Part shown: positions 55,811 to 64,000 of the stretch, in pieces
Layout: each line of letters begins with the position of its first letter
Numbering within the stretch: position 1 is the first letter of the stretch
Source of the DNA: Fusobacterium ulcerans
Lineage (GTDB): Bacteria; Fusobacteriota; Fusobacteriia; Fusobacteriales; Fusobacteriaceae
NCBI RefSeq assembly: GCF_003019675.1
Contig: NZ_CP028105.1
Coordinates: 1,256,282-1,320,281, forward strand
Length of the DNA stretch: 64,000 nt
Direction of reading: 5' to 3'
Made by a program: the position numbers and the translations under genes
Notes under the pieces: model-generated
Databases searched by the model: none
What the model was told of the DNA's origin: nothing
What the model saw: the letters and a program-made list of their open reading frames with translations, nothing else

Positions 55811-56845
55811 TTACATACTTCTACAGTATTGTAAATATAGTTCTTTAATTTTGTCAACAACATAGTCTGGCTTAATTAACGAATAACAATCTTTATAACT
55901 TAGAAGATGACACTCTGGATAAATGTCTCTAGGTTCTACACCTTGATGTTTTTTACTTGGATTAGCCAGCCACTCTTTTTTACTGCTTTTAGAACTAAAG
56001 ATAGCAAAACTTGGAATATCTAAACTTTGGGCTATATGTCTTGGCCCACCTTCGTTTCCAAAAAATATGTCACAATTTGAGATAAGCATTGCTAGTTCTC
56101 TTATTGAAGCAGTTTCTATATTTGAAAAGATATTTTTGCTGTCAGCTAATCTAGAATGAAAGTTTTTGGCAAACTCTTTCTCTGATGGAGAATAAAATAA
56201 TATAATTTGTGGATTCAGTTCTTCTATTACTTTTTTAATAACACATTCCATTTTATTAAGAGGATAAACTTTTTCTGAACGCCTTGAATTTATAGCACAT
56301 ATAAAGATTGGATTAGAAAAATTTATTCCTGATTCTTCCATTTTTTTTCTCATATATTCCTTTTCTTTTTCCTCTATCTGGATTACATAATTATTATCAT
56401 ATAAAATTTTATAATTTTCTGCTAATGGATCCAGCATTTTTAAAAATTTATCAACTTTATCTTTTGAATCAATAGGTTCAGAAATTTTATGAGTATATGT
56501 AAAACCTCTATACATTTTTCTTCTCCCTATTCTATATTTACTTTTTAAAGAAAACAAAGTAAAAAATTCACTTTTGGGAGTAGACATTATATCTATTATT
56601 ATGTCATATTTTTTTCTTGTTACTTTCCATACTTTGATTATATATTTAAAAAAGTTTTTCTGTTCTTCTTTAGTTATTGAAATAACATTATCAATATATG
56701 GATGATTTTTAAATAAAGGAGCAATATGCTCATATACTACATAATCAATTTCAGCATCAGGAAAACTCTTTTTAAGGGTGTTACATATAACTGAACTTAA
56801 AACAGCATCTCCTATTTGTTTAAAACGTATTATAAGTATTTTCAT
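55811..56845 (-). CDS. Glycosyltransferase family 9 (LPS heptosyltransferase-like)
   Basis: A 344-residue GT-B glycosyltransferase of family 9. The N-terminus MKILIIRFKQIGDAVLSSVICNTLKK has the GD-(A/V)-L motif, followed by FPDAEIDYVVYEHIAPLFKNHPYIDNVI. The C-terminal NDP-sugar site has SNCDIFFGNEGGPRHIAQSLDIPSFAIF (with the GPRHIA motif). Such enzymes add heptose or related sugars to lipid A-core in the inner leaflet. It overlaps the end of the VirK/YbjX-like gene by 26 bases, with its ribosome site inside that gene. Operon: barrel, VirK-like, GT9. The sugar is not predictable. Confidence 0.9.
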   Translation of the reverse strand: MKILIIRFKQIGDAVLSSVICNTLKKSFPDAEIDYVVYEHIAPLFKNHPYIDNVISITKEEQKNFFKYIIKVWKVTRKKYDIIIDIMSTPKSEFFTLFSLKSKYRIGRRKMYRGFTYTHKISEPIDSKDKVDKFLKMLDPLAENYKILYDNNYVIQIEEKEKEYMRKKMEESGINFSNPIFICAINSRRSEKVYPLNKMECVIKKVIEELNPQIILFYSPSEKEFAKNFHSRLADSKNIFSNIETASIRELAMLISNCDIFFGNEGGPRHIAQSLDIPSFAIFSSKSSKKEWLANPSKKHQGVEPRDIYPECHLLSYKDCYSLIKPDYVVDKIKELYLQYCRSM

Positions 56846-57773
56846 TATCTTCTCCTTTAAATTTATTCAAAATATCTCTTTCAATATTGTCAAGAAGCCT
56901 ATATCTTTTTTGATATTGATTTCTTTTTTTACTTGGTATTTCTTCCAGAGATTTTCTTTTTATAGATTCAGTAAAATACCACAGTTTATTTTTTTCTTGA
57001 AAAGCATTTAATGATTTCCAAAACGAATCATAATCAGAGAGAATTTTTCTTCTTGAAGTATATCTTTCAGATGTATATATATGAGTAAAATTACCTGTTG
57101 CTGCTTTCATAAAATTAGTTTTTAGAGTTTTCTCTAAAAAACAAAGAACTTCAAATAAAAGCTTTTTAGGAAATAAACCATACATATTTTTAGTACAGTT
57201 TTTTATATATTCTTCATTCAGTTCTTTTGAAGCTCCTTGTAATCCCCCAATCAAGATTGTCTTTTTCTCTTTCTGTTTTATAATACCAAAAGTTAGAGTT
57301 CCAATTATATTTTCATATGAATCTGCTAATTTTATATTAATTTCTCCTTCTTTATCAAAATTGGTATATATACAAAGGTATATTTTAAAGAAAGAGTCAT
57401 CTTTGACAGAAAAACTACTTAACAAAAGTTTTCCTTTTTCATATAATTCATGGCTCAATTTAGCAGGAAAAAAATCATCTATAAAATTATAACTTTCTAT
57501 AATACTCTCTGCTTTTTCATGTGAATTTAGACCTTTAATCAAATATGGGCGATGCACCTTACTAACCAACATTGGATAATTAAAAATATTATCTTTTAAT
57601 TCTTTATGCTTTAGTATAAATTCTCCTACTTTCAAAGAAGAAGGAAGATAAACTATTGTCCTAAAAATAAATTTTATTTGCTTTTTTAATGTATTTATCT
57701 CCCCCTTACCTTTTCCATTTTTTATAATATTAAAATATAGCTGTAATATTTGTATAGTAAAACTAAGCTGCAA
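56820..57773 (-). CDS. VirK/YbjX family protein (DUF535)
   Basis: A 317-residue protein matching DUF535 (VirK/YbjX): HRPYLIKGLNSHEKAESIIESYNFI, GTLTFGIIKQKEKKTILIGGLQGA, LFGLFPKKLLFEVLCFLEK-like segment, FTHIYTSERYTSRRKILSDYDSFW. Family members are linked to envelope integrity and to virulence, including peptide resistance, but their reaction is unknown. The start is TTG with GGAGGAG 5 bases upstream. It sits between the barrel gene (31-base gap) and the GT9 gene (26-base overlap), suggesting a joint role in outer-surface glycan or lipid A modification. Confidence 0.85.
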   Translation of the reverse strand: MQLSFTIQILQLYFNIIKNGKGKGEINTLKKQIKFIFRTIVYLPSSLKVGEFILKHKELKDNIFNYPMLVSKVHRPYLIKGLNSHEKAESIIESYNFIDDFFPAKLSHELYEKGKLLLSSFSVKDDSFFKIYLCIYTNFDKEGEINIKLADSYENIIGTLTFGIIKQKEKKTILIGGLQGASKELNEEYIKNCTKNMYGLFPKKLLFEVLCFLEKTLKTNFMKAATGNFTHIYTSERYTSRRKILSDYDSFWKSLNAFQEKNKLWYFTESIKRKSLEEIPSKKRNQYQKRYRLLDNIERDILNKFKGEDNENTYNTF

Positions 57774-57804: not shown

Positions 57805-58482
57805 TTAAAAATTAAATCTATATCCTATTGATAATGTAATTCTTTGTGAATCATAATCTCTTTTATCTGATTCTCCATCTATTTTTATCTTGAATTTATT
57901 TATTTCATACATTAAATCTATTAGAAAATTTTTATATTCTACTCCTCCTCCCATTCCTAAATAAACTCCATTATCTGCTTTTACTTTATGTGAGTAATCT
58001 TTTTTTAATCCTGTATTTATATCTGTCATTTTTCCTTTGAAATCATCTTTAAATTTATTGAAAGAGTACCCAATATTCCATTTTAAATATGGTCTCCAGT
58101 TTCCAATTCTATCAAAATTATATTTTGTCACTAAATAAATTGGTACTGATTTATAATCTGGCATTTGTTGTTCTAGGGACACTTTGTTTCCAGAATAACG
58201 TCTTGTATCTGTCAGTGACTTATCAAAATACTGTGCTCCTATCCCTATTCCTATTTCAAATTCTTCTGAAATTTCCTTTGTGACTTCTACTGCAAAACTT
58301 ACTACAGCAGCTTCAGCATTTTTATCTCCTATTTGATATCCTTTGTCATTATAAGTTTTATATTTTTCATATACACTTCCTCCTAATCTTAAATATACAT
58401 TAGTATCATCTTTTTCTGCAAAAACTTGACTGCTTATAAACATAATTCCTGTTACCCCTAATAAAGTTTTACTGATTTTCAT
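57805..58482 (-). CDS. Outer-membrane beta-barrel protein
   Basis: A 225-residue exported protein with Sec signal (1-22, VFA-EK) and alternating amphipathic strands: NVYLRLGGSVYEKYK, AEAAVVSFAVEVTKEISEEFEIGIGIGAQYF, RPYLKWNIGYSFNKF, VYLGMGGGVEYKNFLIDLMYEINKFK, and the terminal strand SQRITLSIGYRFNF ending in Phe, the C-terminal signal for the BAM machinery. About eight strands are predicted, OmpA/OmpW-like in size. It heads the VirK/GT9 operon, with GGAGGAA before the ATG. Small-molecule channel or sensor role cannot be told. Confidence 0.85.
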   Translation of the reverse strand: MKISKTLLGVTGIMFISSQVFAEKDDTNVYLRLGGSVYEKYKTYNDKGYQIGDKNAEAAVVSFAVEVTKEISEEFEIGIGIGAQYFDKSLTDTRRYSGNKVSLEQQMPDYKSVPIYLVTKYNFDRIGNWRPYLKWNIGYSFNKFKDDFKGKMTDINTGLKKDYSHKVKADNGVYLGMGGGVEYKNFLIDLMYEINKFKIKIDGESDKRDYDSQRITLSIGYRFNF

Positions 58483-58765
58483 TATTTTTCCTCCTCGATA
58501 TTTAATTTAATAATTTTTATTTTTATAAATCACATATTTTAATCCTAATATTATAAAAATTATATTTATGCTTACTTTACTATTTTTGTATTTATATGTT
58601 TTAAAATACTTTTTCTAATTATAACTCAATATGAAGCCAAATTTCCTTTCAACACACAAACTTATCACTTTTTCGCACAAAAAACATTGTACAAAAATAA
58701 AAAAAGTATTTTAATTTTCAATATATACCTTTAAGATGAAATATTTTAAAGATATCGTCATTTAT
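58483..58765. other. AT-rich divergent intergenic region
   Basis: Upstream half of a 377-base region between the barrel operon and the LytTR module. Several TATAAT-like boxes occur on the minus strand (e.g. TTTTTATAATATTA near 58540) without a convincing -35. No gene or structured RNA is seen. Confidence 0.4.
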
Positions 58766-58817
58766 ACAGTTAACATTTCAAAAAAAACTTTACTTATTTA
58801 TAATAAGTTGATATAAC
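58766..58817 (+). promoter_or_regulatory. Promoter of the receptor/LytTR operon with LytTR-like box
   Basis: TTTACT (58789-58794), 17-base spacer, TATAAC (58812-58817). ACAGTTAAC (58766-58774) matches the AgrA/LytTR half-site ACNGTTNA; about 21 bases further, ACTTTACTT overlaps the -35 as a weak second half-site. The arrangement resembles LytTR-activated promoters, suggesting autoregulation. Confidence 0.5.
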
Positions 58818-58859
58818 TAATTAAGATTATTAATTATTCCATGTTAAAGGAGAATTAAG

Positions 58860-60419
58860 ATGTATAAAAAAATATTGGTATTCATAATTATTTTGGTTGC
58901 TTCTCTAAGCATATTTTTAAAATTTATTTCTCACAATGAAAAAGACTTTATATATGTAGTCCCTAAGATAAAATATATTGAAGTTTTAGATAGAAATATT
59001 GGTGAATATTCTATTCTTTCTCCTGATGGCGAGAAGATGAATTTTGAAATGAGAAATTTTTTAAATGGAAAAATTTTTTTCAATGTTCCTAATGGAGAAT
59101 ACATATTAGAAATCAATTATGACAATCAAGAAAAATATGTATCTTTTATAAAAGATGATAATTGGAAAAAAATAATAATAACTCTTCAAGGAGATACCTT
59201 TTCAAAGAAACAGAAAATAGCATTAAATCTTATCACTCTGACACTTATAATTTTAAATATTTTTATTTATATAAAAACAAATAAAGAAATAAAAAAAGAT
59301 AAAATACTTAATTCAGCTTTTTTTATCTTGATTTTAAAAATATTATTTAGTTTCAGAGGTAATTTTCAAACTGATTTTATAAAATTCCTGGAGTTTTTTA
59401 TATCTGCTGCATTAGGTTTTTTAATAATTTTTTATATTTTAAATAACCGCATGAATAAAAAATATAAAAAAATAAAATACCTTGTTTATGTATTAACTGC
59501 TCTTTCTTTTGTTTATTATACGCTTATAGCAATAAACTTATTATCTCCACAAATTTATACATATATATTAAGTACTCATGAAATTTTATTAACTTTTCTA
59601 AGAAAGATGTATCAGTTTATTAATTTGAGAAGAATTATTCTATTGGTTATTATGCTTAATTTATTAATAAATAAAAGATTTACTGTTTCCCCATATAAAT
59701 TTTATTATTTTTCAGTTATATTTTTATATTTATTTATGGAATTTTTTTATATTGCTTTTCCTAAATTTATTAATCTGTACTCTTTTATTAAATTAATAGA
59801 ATATATGTGTATATACTGGGGGTTGGTATTTGTAAGCTTAAAAATATACACTCCTAATATAAGTAGAGTTGTTCGATATCTTTTGGGATTTACAATCGCC
59901 TATATAACCCTATTTTATTTCAAAACTTTATTGGAACCTGGAATTATTTTAATAACCATATTTATTCTGGATTTCTATACAATGACATTTGAAAAAATAC
60001 TCTTTGTAAAGACTGAAATACTTGAAAAATCTTACACCAAATTATGTCTGGTACAAAATAGATCCGAATTTGAAGAAGAACTTGAAAAAGAACTTAAAAA
60101 AAATTTGAAAGTCAAATCAGTGCTGGTTAAAATTTTTATCGATGAAAAAGAAATTCTTGAATATTTAACTAGTTTAGATCTTTGTGAAAATAATTTATTT
60201 ATAAAAAAGGAAAATATAAGAAAAGAAAATTATTCTACTGGAATAAGATTAGCTTTTAATGGAAATCCTTATGTTGGTGCTATATTTATTGAAGAATATG
60301 AATATGAAATGGATATTGAAAATATAAAATATCTAATAGGAATATCTGAAAAAGTTGCAGGTATAGCCAATAATATAAAACTTAATTCCATTTACAAGGA
60401 GTTGAGTTTTGATGATTAA
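58860..60419 (+). CDS. Multi-transmembrane receptor-like protein lacking a kinase domain
   Basis: A 519-residue membrane protein. Residues 5-23 form a membrane anchor/signal; 24-118 is an extracytoplasmic domain of beta type (KYIEVLDRNIGEYSILSPDGEKMNF, NVPNGEYILEINYDNQ). From about 122 to 390 there are 7-9 hydrophobic segments, giving an extracytoplasmic-domain plus 7TM-DISM-like layout. Residues 395-519 are cytosolic, with a charged helix then a GAF-like alpha/beta part (LVKIFIDEKEILEYL, IRLAFNGNPYVGAIFIEEY). No His-phosphorylation box or HATPase motifs are present. It is overlapped 8 bases by the LytTR gene, implying a receptor-regulator pair. Family not recognised. Confidence 0.75.
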   Translation: MYKKILVFIIILVASLSIFLKFISHNEKDFIYVVPKIKYIEVLDRNIGEYSILSPDGEKMNFEMRNFLNGKIFFNVPNGEYILEINYDNQEKYVSFIKDDNWKKIIITLQGDTFSKKQKIALNLITLTLIILNIFIYIKTNKEIKKDKILNSAFFILILKILFSFRGNFQTDFIKFLEFFISAALGFLIIFYILNNRMNKKYKKIKYLVYVLTALSFVYYTLIAINLLSPQIYTYILSTHEILLTFLRKMYQFINLRRIILLVIMLNLLINKRFTVSPYKFYYFSVIFLYLFMEFFYIAFPKFINLYSFIKLIEYMCIYWGLVFVSLKIYTPNISRVVRYLLGFTIAYITLFYFKTLLEPGIILITIFILDFYTMTFEKILFVKTEILEKSYTKLCLVQNRSEFEEELEKELKKNLKVKSVLVKIFIDEKEILEYLTSLDLCENNLFIKKENIRKENYSTGIRLAFNGNPYVGAIFIEEYEYEMDIENIKYLIGISEKVAGIANNIKLNSIYKELSFDD

Positions 60420-61080
60420 AATAGGGGTAGATATAGATGAAAAGCTTATTATTCTTTTAAAGGAGATGCTGGATTATGAATTTATAAATACTAAACGTGA
60501 AAGTAGCAGCTTTGAAATATTTATAATAGATATCGACACCGAAAATATTACAGATAAAATAAAAGCTAATTATAAAAAGGGAATTCCTGTTATAGTTGTT
60601 TTAGGAAAAAATAATATTAAAGAAATGAGAACTTTATTCTTATCAAATTATGTTGCAGATTGTATTTTAAAACATGAGATCTATGAAATTGAAAAATCTA
60701 TTGAAAAATTAATTTATTCCAAACAAAAATATACTCAATTCTATCTAAATGATAATCAGAAAAAAGGAATCATTGACTTTTCAGAAGTAACATATATAAG
60801 TTATTGCAGAACAACACGAAGAATTCAATTTCACTTAACTAATAAAGAAGTCTTTACCTTGAAAGAAAATTTTTCTATCATTGAAGAAAAACTAGAAACA
60901 ATAAATAGTTTTTATAAAATTGAAAGAGGGACCATAATTAACACAAGCTTAATTAGATACATAGATTATAAAGAGGAAACTATAATTTTTAGAGATTTCT
61001 CTATATTATATGTGAGCAAAATAAAATTAAAAAAAATAGAAGAAGATCTAAATTTAACTAAAAATAGATTATATTTATAG
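60412..61080 (+). CDS. LytTR DNA-binding response regulator with partly degenerate receiver
   Basis: A 222-residue protein. Residues 1-115 resemble a receiver: IKIGVDID (acidic first strand), FEIFIIDID (phospho-acceptor strand, Asp candidates), PVIVVLG where the usual Thr/Ser of strand 4 is missing, and CILKHE with the conserved Lys position. Residues 120-222 form the LytTR DNA-binding domain (VTYISYCRTTRRIQFHLTNKEVFTLKENFSIIEEKL, FYKIERGTIINTSLIRYID). The start at 60412 (AAGGAG 10 bases before) is favoured over a TTG one codon upstream. It overlaps the receptor gene by 8 bases; no histidine kinase is adjacent. Confidence 0.88.
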   Translation: MIKIGVDIDEKLIILLKEMLDYEFINTKRESSSFEIFIIDIDTENITDKIKANYKKGIPVIVVLGKNNIKEMRTLFLSNYVADCILKHEIYEIEKSIEKLIYSKQKYTQFYLNDNQKKGIIDFSEVTYISYCRTTRRIQFHLTNKEVFTLKENFSIIEEKLETINSFYKIERGTIINTSLIRYIDYKEETIIFRDFSILYVSKIKLKKIEEDLNLTKNRLYL

Positions 61081-61085
61081 ATAAA

Positions 61086-61124
61086 AAATGGTTGAAAGAT
61101 GCTTTCTTTCAACCATTTGACTTT
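61086..61124. terminator. Bidirectional terminator after the LytTR gene
   Basis: AAATGGTTGAAAGA-TGCTT-TCTTTCAACCATTT forms a perfect 14-bp hairpin, followed by CTTTTTTATTTT on the plus strand. Confidence 0.9.
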
Positions 61125-62544: not shown

Positions 62545-62850
62545 TTAGTCAATTAAAGAAAGAGCAAGGTCTAAAACTTTATCCCCTTTCATCATACCAT
62601 AATCCATAGTATTAATGATCTCTACTTTTTTTCCTACTGTTTCAGCTACTGCTGCTAATTCAGCTTTTTTATATTTTACTTGTGGTCCTAATAGAAATAC
62701 ATCATAGTTACCAAGATTTTCTTGAAACTTTGCTATACTTAAAGCATTAATTTCAACTTCTATTCCTTTTTTTACAGCTGCTTCTTTCATTTTTTTAACC
62801 ATAAGACTTGTTGACATTCCTGCATCACATAATAATAATATTTTTTTCAT
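62545..62850 (-). CDS. PTS lactose/cellobiose-type EIIB
   Basis: A 101-residue phosphocarrier of the lactose/cellobiose (Lac) PTS family. The N-terminal active site CDAGMSTSLMVKKM has the phosphorylated Cys (residue 8) in the KILLLCDAGMSTS strand-loop; LGPQVKYKKAEL and NTMDYGMMKGDKVLDLAL complete the fold. It passes phosphate from an EIIA to the sugar as it crosses the EIIC encoded upstream (35-base gap). No EIIA gene is visible in this window. Substrate is probably a beta-glucoside or N,N'-diacetylchitobiose-like disaccharide. Confidence 0.93.
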   Translation of the reverse strand: MKKILLLCDAGMSTSLMVKKMKEAAVKKGIEVEINALSIAKFQENLGNYDVFLLGPQVKYKKAELAAVAETVGKKVEIINTMDYGMMKGDKVLDLALSLID

Positions 62851-62885
62851 AGTTTTCCTCCTGAATATTTACTTTAAATTTTTAA

Positions 62886-64000
62886 TTATTTTCCTTCATT
62901 TTCCATTTGTTCTAATCTTTCCATTTCATCTTCCTCTTTTTTACTTGCCTTATCTATTATTCTAAGGAATGGAAGATAAATCATTGCTCCAATGATAAGA
63001 TTTACTATTTGAATAAGTGCTCCTGAAATATCCCCTACTGTAATAAATCCACTGATTATTGCTGGTGTAGGCCATGGGAAAGCTATCCCTAAAGGTTTTG
63101 ATACAATTCCAAGATTCATTGTTATATATTGAGTAGTTACCATTACCATAGCTACCAGATTAAATGGTATAAGCATAATAGGGTTAAGGATTATTGGAAG
63201 TCCAAACAGGATTGGTTCATTGATATTGAATATTCCTGGAATAGTTCCAATAGCTCCAACACTTCTTATATGTTTACTTTTTGCAAAGATTAATATAGCT
63301 ATAAGCAGAGAAAGAGTAACTCCTGCTCCTCCCATCCATACCATGTCAAAGAACTGTTCAGTTATTACATGAGGAAGAGGCTGTCCAGCTTGTAATGCAG
63401 CTATATTTTCTACCTGATTTTCCAACCAGAAAGGTCTTACAAATCCATTTACCATTGAACCACTGTTTATTCCAACAGACCAAAGAATTGATATAGCAAA
63501 AACTGTAAATATAGAACCTATATATGAAGTTCCAAGAGATTTTAACGGCAAAGCCAGCATTTTATATACAAAGTCATGTATTGTTCCATAGTCTGTCTGC
63601 ATCATAAGAAGTCTTAGAAGAAGAGCTGCTCCAAGGATAACTGTTCCTGGAATAAGAGCCTCAAATGATTTTATAACTTCAGGTGGTACACCATCAGGCA
63701 TTTTTACAAGAATATTTCTATTAACGAAAAACTGAAATATTTTTACTGTTAATACTCCAATAACCATAGCCACAAACATTCCCTTACTTCCAAGCCAGTC
63801 AAATGTAATAACTGCTCCATGTTCAGTAGAATGTCCCAATGGAGTAAGTATCAAGAATGAAGCTAGAGACAGAAGTCCTACTGCAATACTGTCAAGTTCA
63901 AATTGTTTAGCAAGCTGCTGAGCTACTAAGAAAGCTACATACAGAGCTATAAGTGAAAATGTAGCACTTACAGGGATATCAAGAATATCCTTCCATCCTT
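62886..64000 (-). CDS. PTS lactose/cellobiose-type EIIC, 5' part beyond window
   Basis: At least 370 residues are visible and the frame stays open through the right edge (codons before a TTG at 63854 continue as ...SIAVGLLSLASFLILTPLG), so the true start is outside. It is a membrane permease of the cellobiose EIIC type with many hydrophobic segments. FWLENQVENIAALQAGQPLPHVITEQFFDMVWMGGAGVTLSLL, GTIPGIFNINEPILFGLPIILNPIMLIPF (with the NINEP glutamate motif) and AFPWPTPAIISGFITVGDISGALIQ are typical. It forms the translocation channel with EIIB downstream. Confidence 0.92.
   Translation of the reverse strand, partial: GWKDILDIPVSATFSLIALYVAFLVAQQLAKQFELDSIAVGLLSLASFLILTPLGHSTEHGAVITFDWLGSKGMFVAMVIGVLTVKIFQFFVNRNILVKMPDGVPPEVIKSFEALIPGTVILGAALLLRLLMMQTDYGTIHDFVYKMLALPLKSLGTSYIGSIFTVFAISILWSVGINSGSMVNGFVRPFWLENQVENIAALQAGQPLPHVITEQFFDMVWMGGAGVTLSLLIAILIFAKSKHIRSVGAIGTIPGIFNINEPILFGLPIILNPIMLIPFNLVAMVMVTTQYITMNLGIVSKPLGIAFPWPTPAIISGFITVGDISGALIQIVNLIIGAMIYLPFLRIIDKASKKEEDEMERLEQMENEGK

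Follow-up and report, generated by a model that had tools for sequence, protein, structure and literature searches.

A receptor without kinase domain and an overlapping pseudo-receiver LytTR regulator as a probable envelope-to-DNA switch in Fusobacterium ulcerans

The window studied here, a stretch of 64,000 nucleotides from Fusobacterium ulcerans (NZ_CP028105.1, positions 1,256,282 to 1,320,281) that belongs to a complete genome of 3.54 Mb, carries two overlapping genes for a multi-helix membrane receptor and a LytTR regulator. The pair probably constitutes a two-protein switch from the envelope to the DNA, in which the kinase-less receptor controls a regulator with a pseudo-receiver and this regulator activates adjacent genes for outer-membrane and surface proteins. 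Both open reading frames were found where the initial annotation had placed them, with the same coordinates and the same overlap of 8 bases; this overlap is also present in several paralogues, while others abut or overlap differently. The features of the module and their coordinates are detailed in Table 1.

The search for the gene pair in other Fusobacteriota, proposed in the initial annotation, recovered the receptor in 22 of 98 genomes, all within four genera of the family Fusobacteriaceae. A LytTR gene directly adjoined the receptor gene in every locus examined in this family, and the receptor gene came first in all of them. More distant pairs were obtained in further genera with the regulator profile, some of them with receptors of 490–586 aa missed by the receptor profile, as well as a few regulators without receptor, which in three loci (L145, L146 and L149) have a full N-domain. 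None of the pairs found includes a histidine kinase, and ordinary LytS/LytR systems, present also in this genome, are encoded by genes separate from the pairs. Relatives beyond the Fusobacteriota were sampled by one collection scan and one plasmid search, so that the pair may be more widely distributed.

The scan of the window receptor with Pfam and NCBIfam profiles matched no family at E ≤ 1, and none of its 24 relatives matched the HisKA, HATPase, GAF or 7TMR profiles; a hidden kinase was thus looked for by profile and none was found, in accordance with the absence of histidine kinase motifs previously described. The search of PDB sequences for homologues returned only chance matches. The helices of the AlphaFold2 model, together with the hydropathy of the family and its alternating Lys+Arg loops, indicate a positive-inside topology with 1+9 membrane helices, slightly more than the 7–9 segments originally proposed. 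The extracytoplasmic domain and the GAF-like tail of that proposal were both recovered as predictions. For the tail, the Foldseek matches to the GAF structures 3ci6 and 3k2n had probabilities of 0.99–1.00 and E values of 0.08–0.16, which are of low significance, and nothing kinase-like was detected in the receptor beyond it. Profile–profile comparisons of the receptor tail, the receptor membrane part and the regulator N-domain with about 15 fusobacterial LytS and LytR proteins gave no significant match. The view of the receptor as a LytS stripped of its kinase is unsupported on this basis.

With such an anatomy, the receptor could also act through a small molecule (a GAF ligand) that is produced, transported or bound in the cell, the regulator then answering the molecule or its own dose and not a contact. 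Ligand binding or transport would be within reach of the GAF-like tail and the many-helix membrane domain, and one subfamily of pairs lies within an amino-acid ATP-binding cassette (ABC) transporter operon; nevertheless, no enzyme domain was found, and the overlapping genes and strict pairing suit a stoichiometric complex better, which leaves this explanation improbable.

The LytTR domain was matched in the window regulator and in 30 of 30 relatives, and Pfam Response_reg in none of the 30. Structure prediction, as also proposed initially, gave a good model of the regulator (predicted local distance difference test, pLDDT, 83.6), with a receiver-like fold without helix 2 followed by the LytTR domain, and the low-confidence model of 1+9 helices for the receptor. 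The best PDB match of the regulator in Foldseek was full-length ComE (E = 3.7e-11); many receivers and the LytTR domain of AgrA (4g4k) were matched as well. Among the 30 relatives, the first Mg-binding acid of the phosphorylation pocket is absent from all, the second is D or E in 24, and the Thr of beta-strand 4 is absent from 28, which agrees with the earlier observation of a receiver without the usual Thr/Ser of this strand. At the Lys position of strand 5, R occurs in 25 and K in five, including the window copy, so that it is basic in all 30. The acceptor Asp is the sole residue broadly kept among the DD, D, T and K of the pocket. Since pocket residues are missing, the N-domain is a pseudo-receiver under the definition by which any of five residues is missing (PMC12632262), and it is unlikely to act as a standard phospho-switch.

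The conserved Asp and the invariably basic strand-5 position, together with the ordinary LytS/LytR system of the genome, would fit a regulator that is phospho-regulated at D40 by an unlinked kinase (e.g., this LytS) or by small-molecule donors, with the receptor only modulating the regulator or the kinase. Such an arrangement has a low probability given the loss of the first Mg-binding acid, of the Thr and of receiver helix 2, the lack of a histidine kinase in any pair, and an N-domain without significant profile match to LytR receivers.

To locate the operator, upstream regions were scanned in an unbiased manner for a 9-bp element used twice, at periods from 10 to 45, and one clear peak was obtained, at a period of 21 bp. 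At this period ten loci scored 194.5, whereas the other periods gave 124.9 ± 8.5 and shuffles did not exceed 116; these loci are partly non-independent and represent about six lineages, and the peak persisted in a reduced set of eight (133 versus at most 113). Read on the divergent gene's strand, a TATAAT-like box follows the end of the second repeat by 28–29 bp in all ten. The window site, TTTTGTGCG-N12-GTTTGTGTG, is the only one with zero mismatches in the 3.5-Mb genome, and its repeats are largely kept in both orthologues. A model built from the ten loci, and fixed before its application to 372 kb of untrained loci, found 11 sites versus 0.17 expected. Nearly all of them precede surface genes or DUF535 genes beside the pair; one (L157), probably a chance hit, falls within a gene. 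The TraT operons of Cetobacterium carry a form with a 13-bp spacer, TTTTATGTA-N13-ATTCATGTA, likewise at a distance of 29 bp. Three repeats in 21-bp phase precede the 314-aa porin-like gene of L021/L163, and a slight rise at 42 bp was seen in the period scan. No support was obtained for a regulon of this genome extending past the adjacent operon: its two one-mismatch sites are without suitable -10, and the weak hits among the two-mismatch sites tested lay within genes.

The control site named in the initial annotation was a different one, the AgrA-like box ACAGTTAAC before the promoter. The window was searched for the arrangement ACNGTTNA-N12-ACNGTTNA and yielded none, the box with at most one mismatch has ten matches, below the 15 expected, and it is lost in both orthologues. 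Being single-copy and not conserved, it was rejected. The 21-bp-period repeat facing the divergent outer-membrane protein gene is the better candidate operator; its conservation supports it, and the regulator would be the protein that binds there.

The genes that follow these sites, in other genera too, are mostly related to the cell surface. In the window, the predicted target operon comprises an outer-membrane beta-barrel protein gene and probably a DUF535 gene and a glycosyltransferase gene (Table 1). S8 subtilase autotransporters of lipoprotein type are the divergent products in L022, L023, L024, L052, L053, L055 and L056, four of which were scanned with Pfam. In L051 the divergent gene was identified as that of a TraT lipoprotein from its similarity to the scanned gene of L057. 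The autotransporters at these loci share the fusolisin layout (PMC4214739). As for the untrained sites, those of L166 and L167 precede genes for a 199-aa protein and a 3320-aa autotransporter in an operon ending with the pair. Further ones lie upstream of the porin-like gene (L163), of DUF535 together with a divergent gene for a secreted protein (L150 and L151), of DUF535 (L153), of an outer-membrane protein-like gene (L152) and of a secreted-protein gene (L156). DUF535-like genes adjoin the pair also in L055, L056, L150, L151 and L153. This is the VirK/YbjX family, one member of which has been investigated jointly with IcsA, a surface protein of Shigella, and its recurrent link to surface proteins is notable. 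Some related loci are decayed: in G009 (L020) the receptor and the regulator are damaged and the divergent outer-membrane protein gene is a remnant, with the operator still present, and in G010 (L017) the outer-membrane protein gene has an internal stop.

The switch may be envisaged as follows. A periplasmic or membrane cue would be sensed through the beta-domain and the nine-helix bundle of the receptor, whose state would pass to the cytoplasmic GAF-like tail, and this tail would most likely control the pseudo-receiver regulator by direct contact. The free regulator would bind the two 9-bp repeats, 21 bp apart, as a head-to-tail pair and activate a promoter with a poor -35, which here is that of the divergent outer-membrane protein–DUF535–glycosyltransferase operon and elsewhere those of subtilase autotransporter, TraT, porin-like or DUF535 genes. 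The non-phosphorelay link advanced in the initial annotation stands as the most likely reading, because the kinase-less pair is conserved with a degenerate receiver; retention of the acceptor Asp in 28 of 30 relatives speaks on the other side. Activation is proposed because the operator abuts a weak -35.

Restraint of the regulator by the receptor until the signal arrives is slightly favoured over its activation by the receptor, because receptor-less regulators persist (L145, L146 and L149) and because L024 (G001) keeps an intact regulator and autotransporter despite a frameshifted receptor. The opposite sign, with a ligand-bound tail that promotes dimerisation or membrane recruitment of the regulator, would be served by the same anatomy and the same operator evidence, as the sequence does not fix the sign; it is rather unlikely in view of the persisting receptor-less regulators and of the characterised membrane partners of the LytTR Regulatory System (LRS), which are inhibitors (PMC6193735). 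More tentatively, pairs of this kind could represent a dedicated, phosphorylation-free signalling class of the Fusobacteriota: direct contact with the GAF-like tail of a ten-helix receptor would gate the pseudo-receiver LytTR regulator, and single outer-membrane and autotransporter operons would be expressed according to cues from the envelope or from outside the cell.

Several points weigh against the proposed switch. The conservation of D40 in 28 of 30 relatives and the Lys of the window copy at the Lys/Arg position mean that the regulator may conceivably be phosphorylated. The whole receptor was modelled with low confidence (pLDDT 64), and the GAF assignment is weak. No period-21 peak was obtained for the amino-acid-transporter branch of Cetobacterium or for a second pair of this genome, and the operator is therefore not universal. 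Finally, few loci bear on the sign of control.

When compared with known systems, the pair is best read as a variant of the LRS class and not as a member, since its working would be LRS-like and some defining features fail. The comparison with streptococcal LytTR/membrane-inhibitor pairs made in the initial annotation was apt, as was its remark that the receptor architecture differs. Shared with HdrRM and BrsRM (PMC6193735) are a LytTR regulator with an adjoining kinase-less multi-helix membrane protein, 9-bp direct repeats that are spaced by 21–22 bp and closely precede the -35 region, and the link of some operons to transporters. The LRS type of operator, with direct repeats of about 9 bp and a spacer of 11–13 bp near the -35, was found here as period-21 repeats 28–29 bp before the -10. 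In contrast to LRS, the gene order is reversed, with the receptor first, an order reported in LRS-like operons of Bacteroides (PMC6193735); the regulator has a degenerate receiver-like domain, whereas LRS regulators have no receiver domain; and the receptor combines 1+9 helices with a periplasmic domain and a GAF-like tail. LRS repeats are placed at the promoter of the module itself, for positive autoregulation, while those of the window face the divergent target promoter; an own-operon form occurs in the relatives L057, L166 and possibly L147.

The definition of a two-component system of LytS/LytT type fails outright, with no DHp or ATPase partner domains and incomplete receiver residues. A multi-helix receptor, a GAF-like tail and a LytTR regulator encoded together are common to BtsSR and LytSR, but the receptor studied lacks 5TMR-LYT, DHp and ATPase domains and its regulator has lost pocket residues. 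The 7TMR-DISM receptors combine a periplasmic beta-domain, a membrane bundle and a cytoplasmic module in a similar layout; the present receptor differs by nine instead of seven helices after the periplasmic domain and by the absence of a Pfam match in 24 members. With AgrA and ComE the fold of the whole regulator is shared (full-length ComE best, and the AgrA LytTR domain), but the phospho-pocket is degenerate, the half-site is different (TTTTGTGTA) and no AgrC/ComD-type kinase is present. As in atypical pseudo-receiver response regulators (PMC12632262), control is probably not by phosphorelay; unlike them, the regulator has a membrane receptor encoded beside it as a suggested partner, and its output is LytTR.

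Table 1. Features of the receptor/regulator module and of the predicted target operon (window positions).
Feature	Position	Strand	Evidence or remarks
Glycosyltransferase, family 9 (heptosyltransferase); probable third gene of target operon	55811..56845	-	PF01075, E=2.6e-18
DUF535 (VirK/YbjX family); probable second gene of target operon	56820..57773	-	PF04393, E=2.6e-75; start codon uncertain
Outer-membrane beta-barrel protein, 225 aa; predicted target	57805..58482	-	PF13505, E=2.5e-9
-10 box TATAAT of divergent gene	58618..58623	-	29 bp past operator; no good -35
Predicted operator, 9-bp direct repeat with 12-bp spacer	58653..58682	-	Period-21 peak
AgrA-like box	58766..58774	+	Lone half-site; rejected as operator
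Receptor's own promoter, TTTACT-17-TATAAC	58789..58817	+	Kept in orthologues
Receptor gene	58860..60419	+	ATG start, 519 aa; no known domain by profile (Pfam/NCBIfam)
Predicted periplasmic segment, aa ~27-115, small beta-sandwich	58938..59204	+	AlphaFold2 strands 49-98, modelled with low confidence; Foldseek hits to Ig-like folds, weak
Nine predicted membrane helices, aa 116-381	59205..60002	+	AlphaFold2 helices; family hydropathy, alternating Lys+Arg loops
GAF-like cytoplasmic tail, aa 385-515	60012..60404	+	pLDDT mostly 70-90; Foldseek GAF hits
Regulator gene	60412..61080	+	ATG start, 222 aa
Receiver-like N-domain, aa 1-105, helix 2 missing, degenerate pocket	60412..60726	+	pLDDT ~85; Foldseek ComE; pocket counts
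D40 codon, phospho-acceptor Asp position	60529..60531	+	D 28/30, E 2/30
LytTR DNA-binding domain	60736..61050	+	PF04397, E=2.9e-7; AgrA LytTR 4g4k
Predicted terminator	61086..61118		Perfect 14-bp hairpin, then T-run; apparently common to the pair and the convergent peptidase gene

Other characteristics of the module and its relatives are the following. A perfect inverted repeat, ACTTATT-N3-AATAAGT (58792-58808), overlaps the receptor promoter at its -35 and spacer, the arms of the repeat are kept in both orthologues, and it may be a second control site. Genes for phosphotransferase system (PTS)-type EIIB- and EIIC-like proteins (62545-63854) adjoin the PepV-like dipeptidase gene that is convergent with the pair. 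The second, distant receptor/LytTR pair of this genome (L016:3326-5565, at about 880-882.6 kb; 526 and 219 aa, 1-base overlap) is located directly upstream of cystathionine/methionine gamma-lyase-like and transporter-like genes and is kept in related genomes; near it, a small stand-alone Hint/intein-type-like protein of 134 aa is encoded (L016:6433-6837), kept in L076 and L077. The receptor-less regulators of L145 and L146, with a receiver-like domain, overlap a flavodoxin-like gene and are near ExbD/TolR-like genes. In Cetobacterium, one subfamily of pairs (L067–L073) lies between 2-oxoacid:ferredoxin oxidoreductase-like genes and the amino-acid ABC transporter operon, which suggests a nutrient-related branch of the pair; for Cetobacterium somerae, a RefSeq plasmid record still lists the receptor as a hypothetical protein.

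No paper that brings together LytTR, Fusobacterium and autotransporters came up in the literature search. The switching of bacterial pseudo-receivers has been described as an open question (PMC12632262), and the present pair, with a candidate partner known by gene linkage and a DNA target predicted to the base, makes it directly testable. For the family Fusobacteriaceae, the module predicts control of surface proteins, such as the fusolisin-type subtilase autotransporters and TraT.
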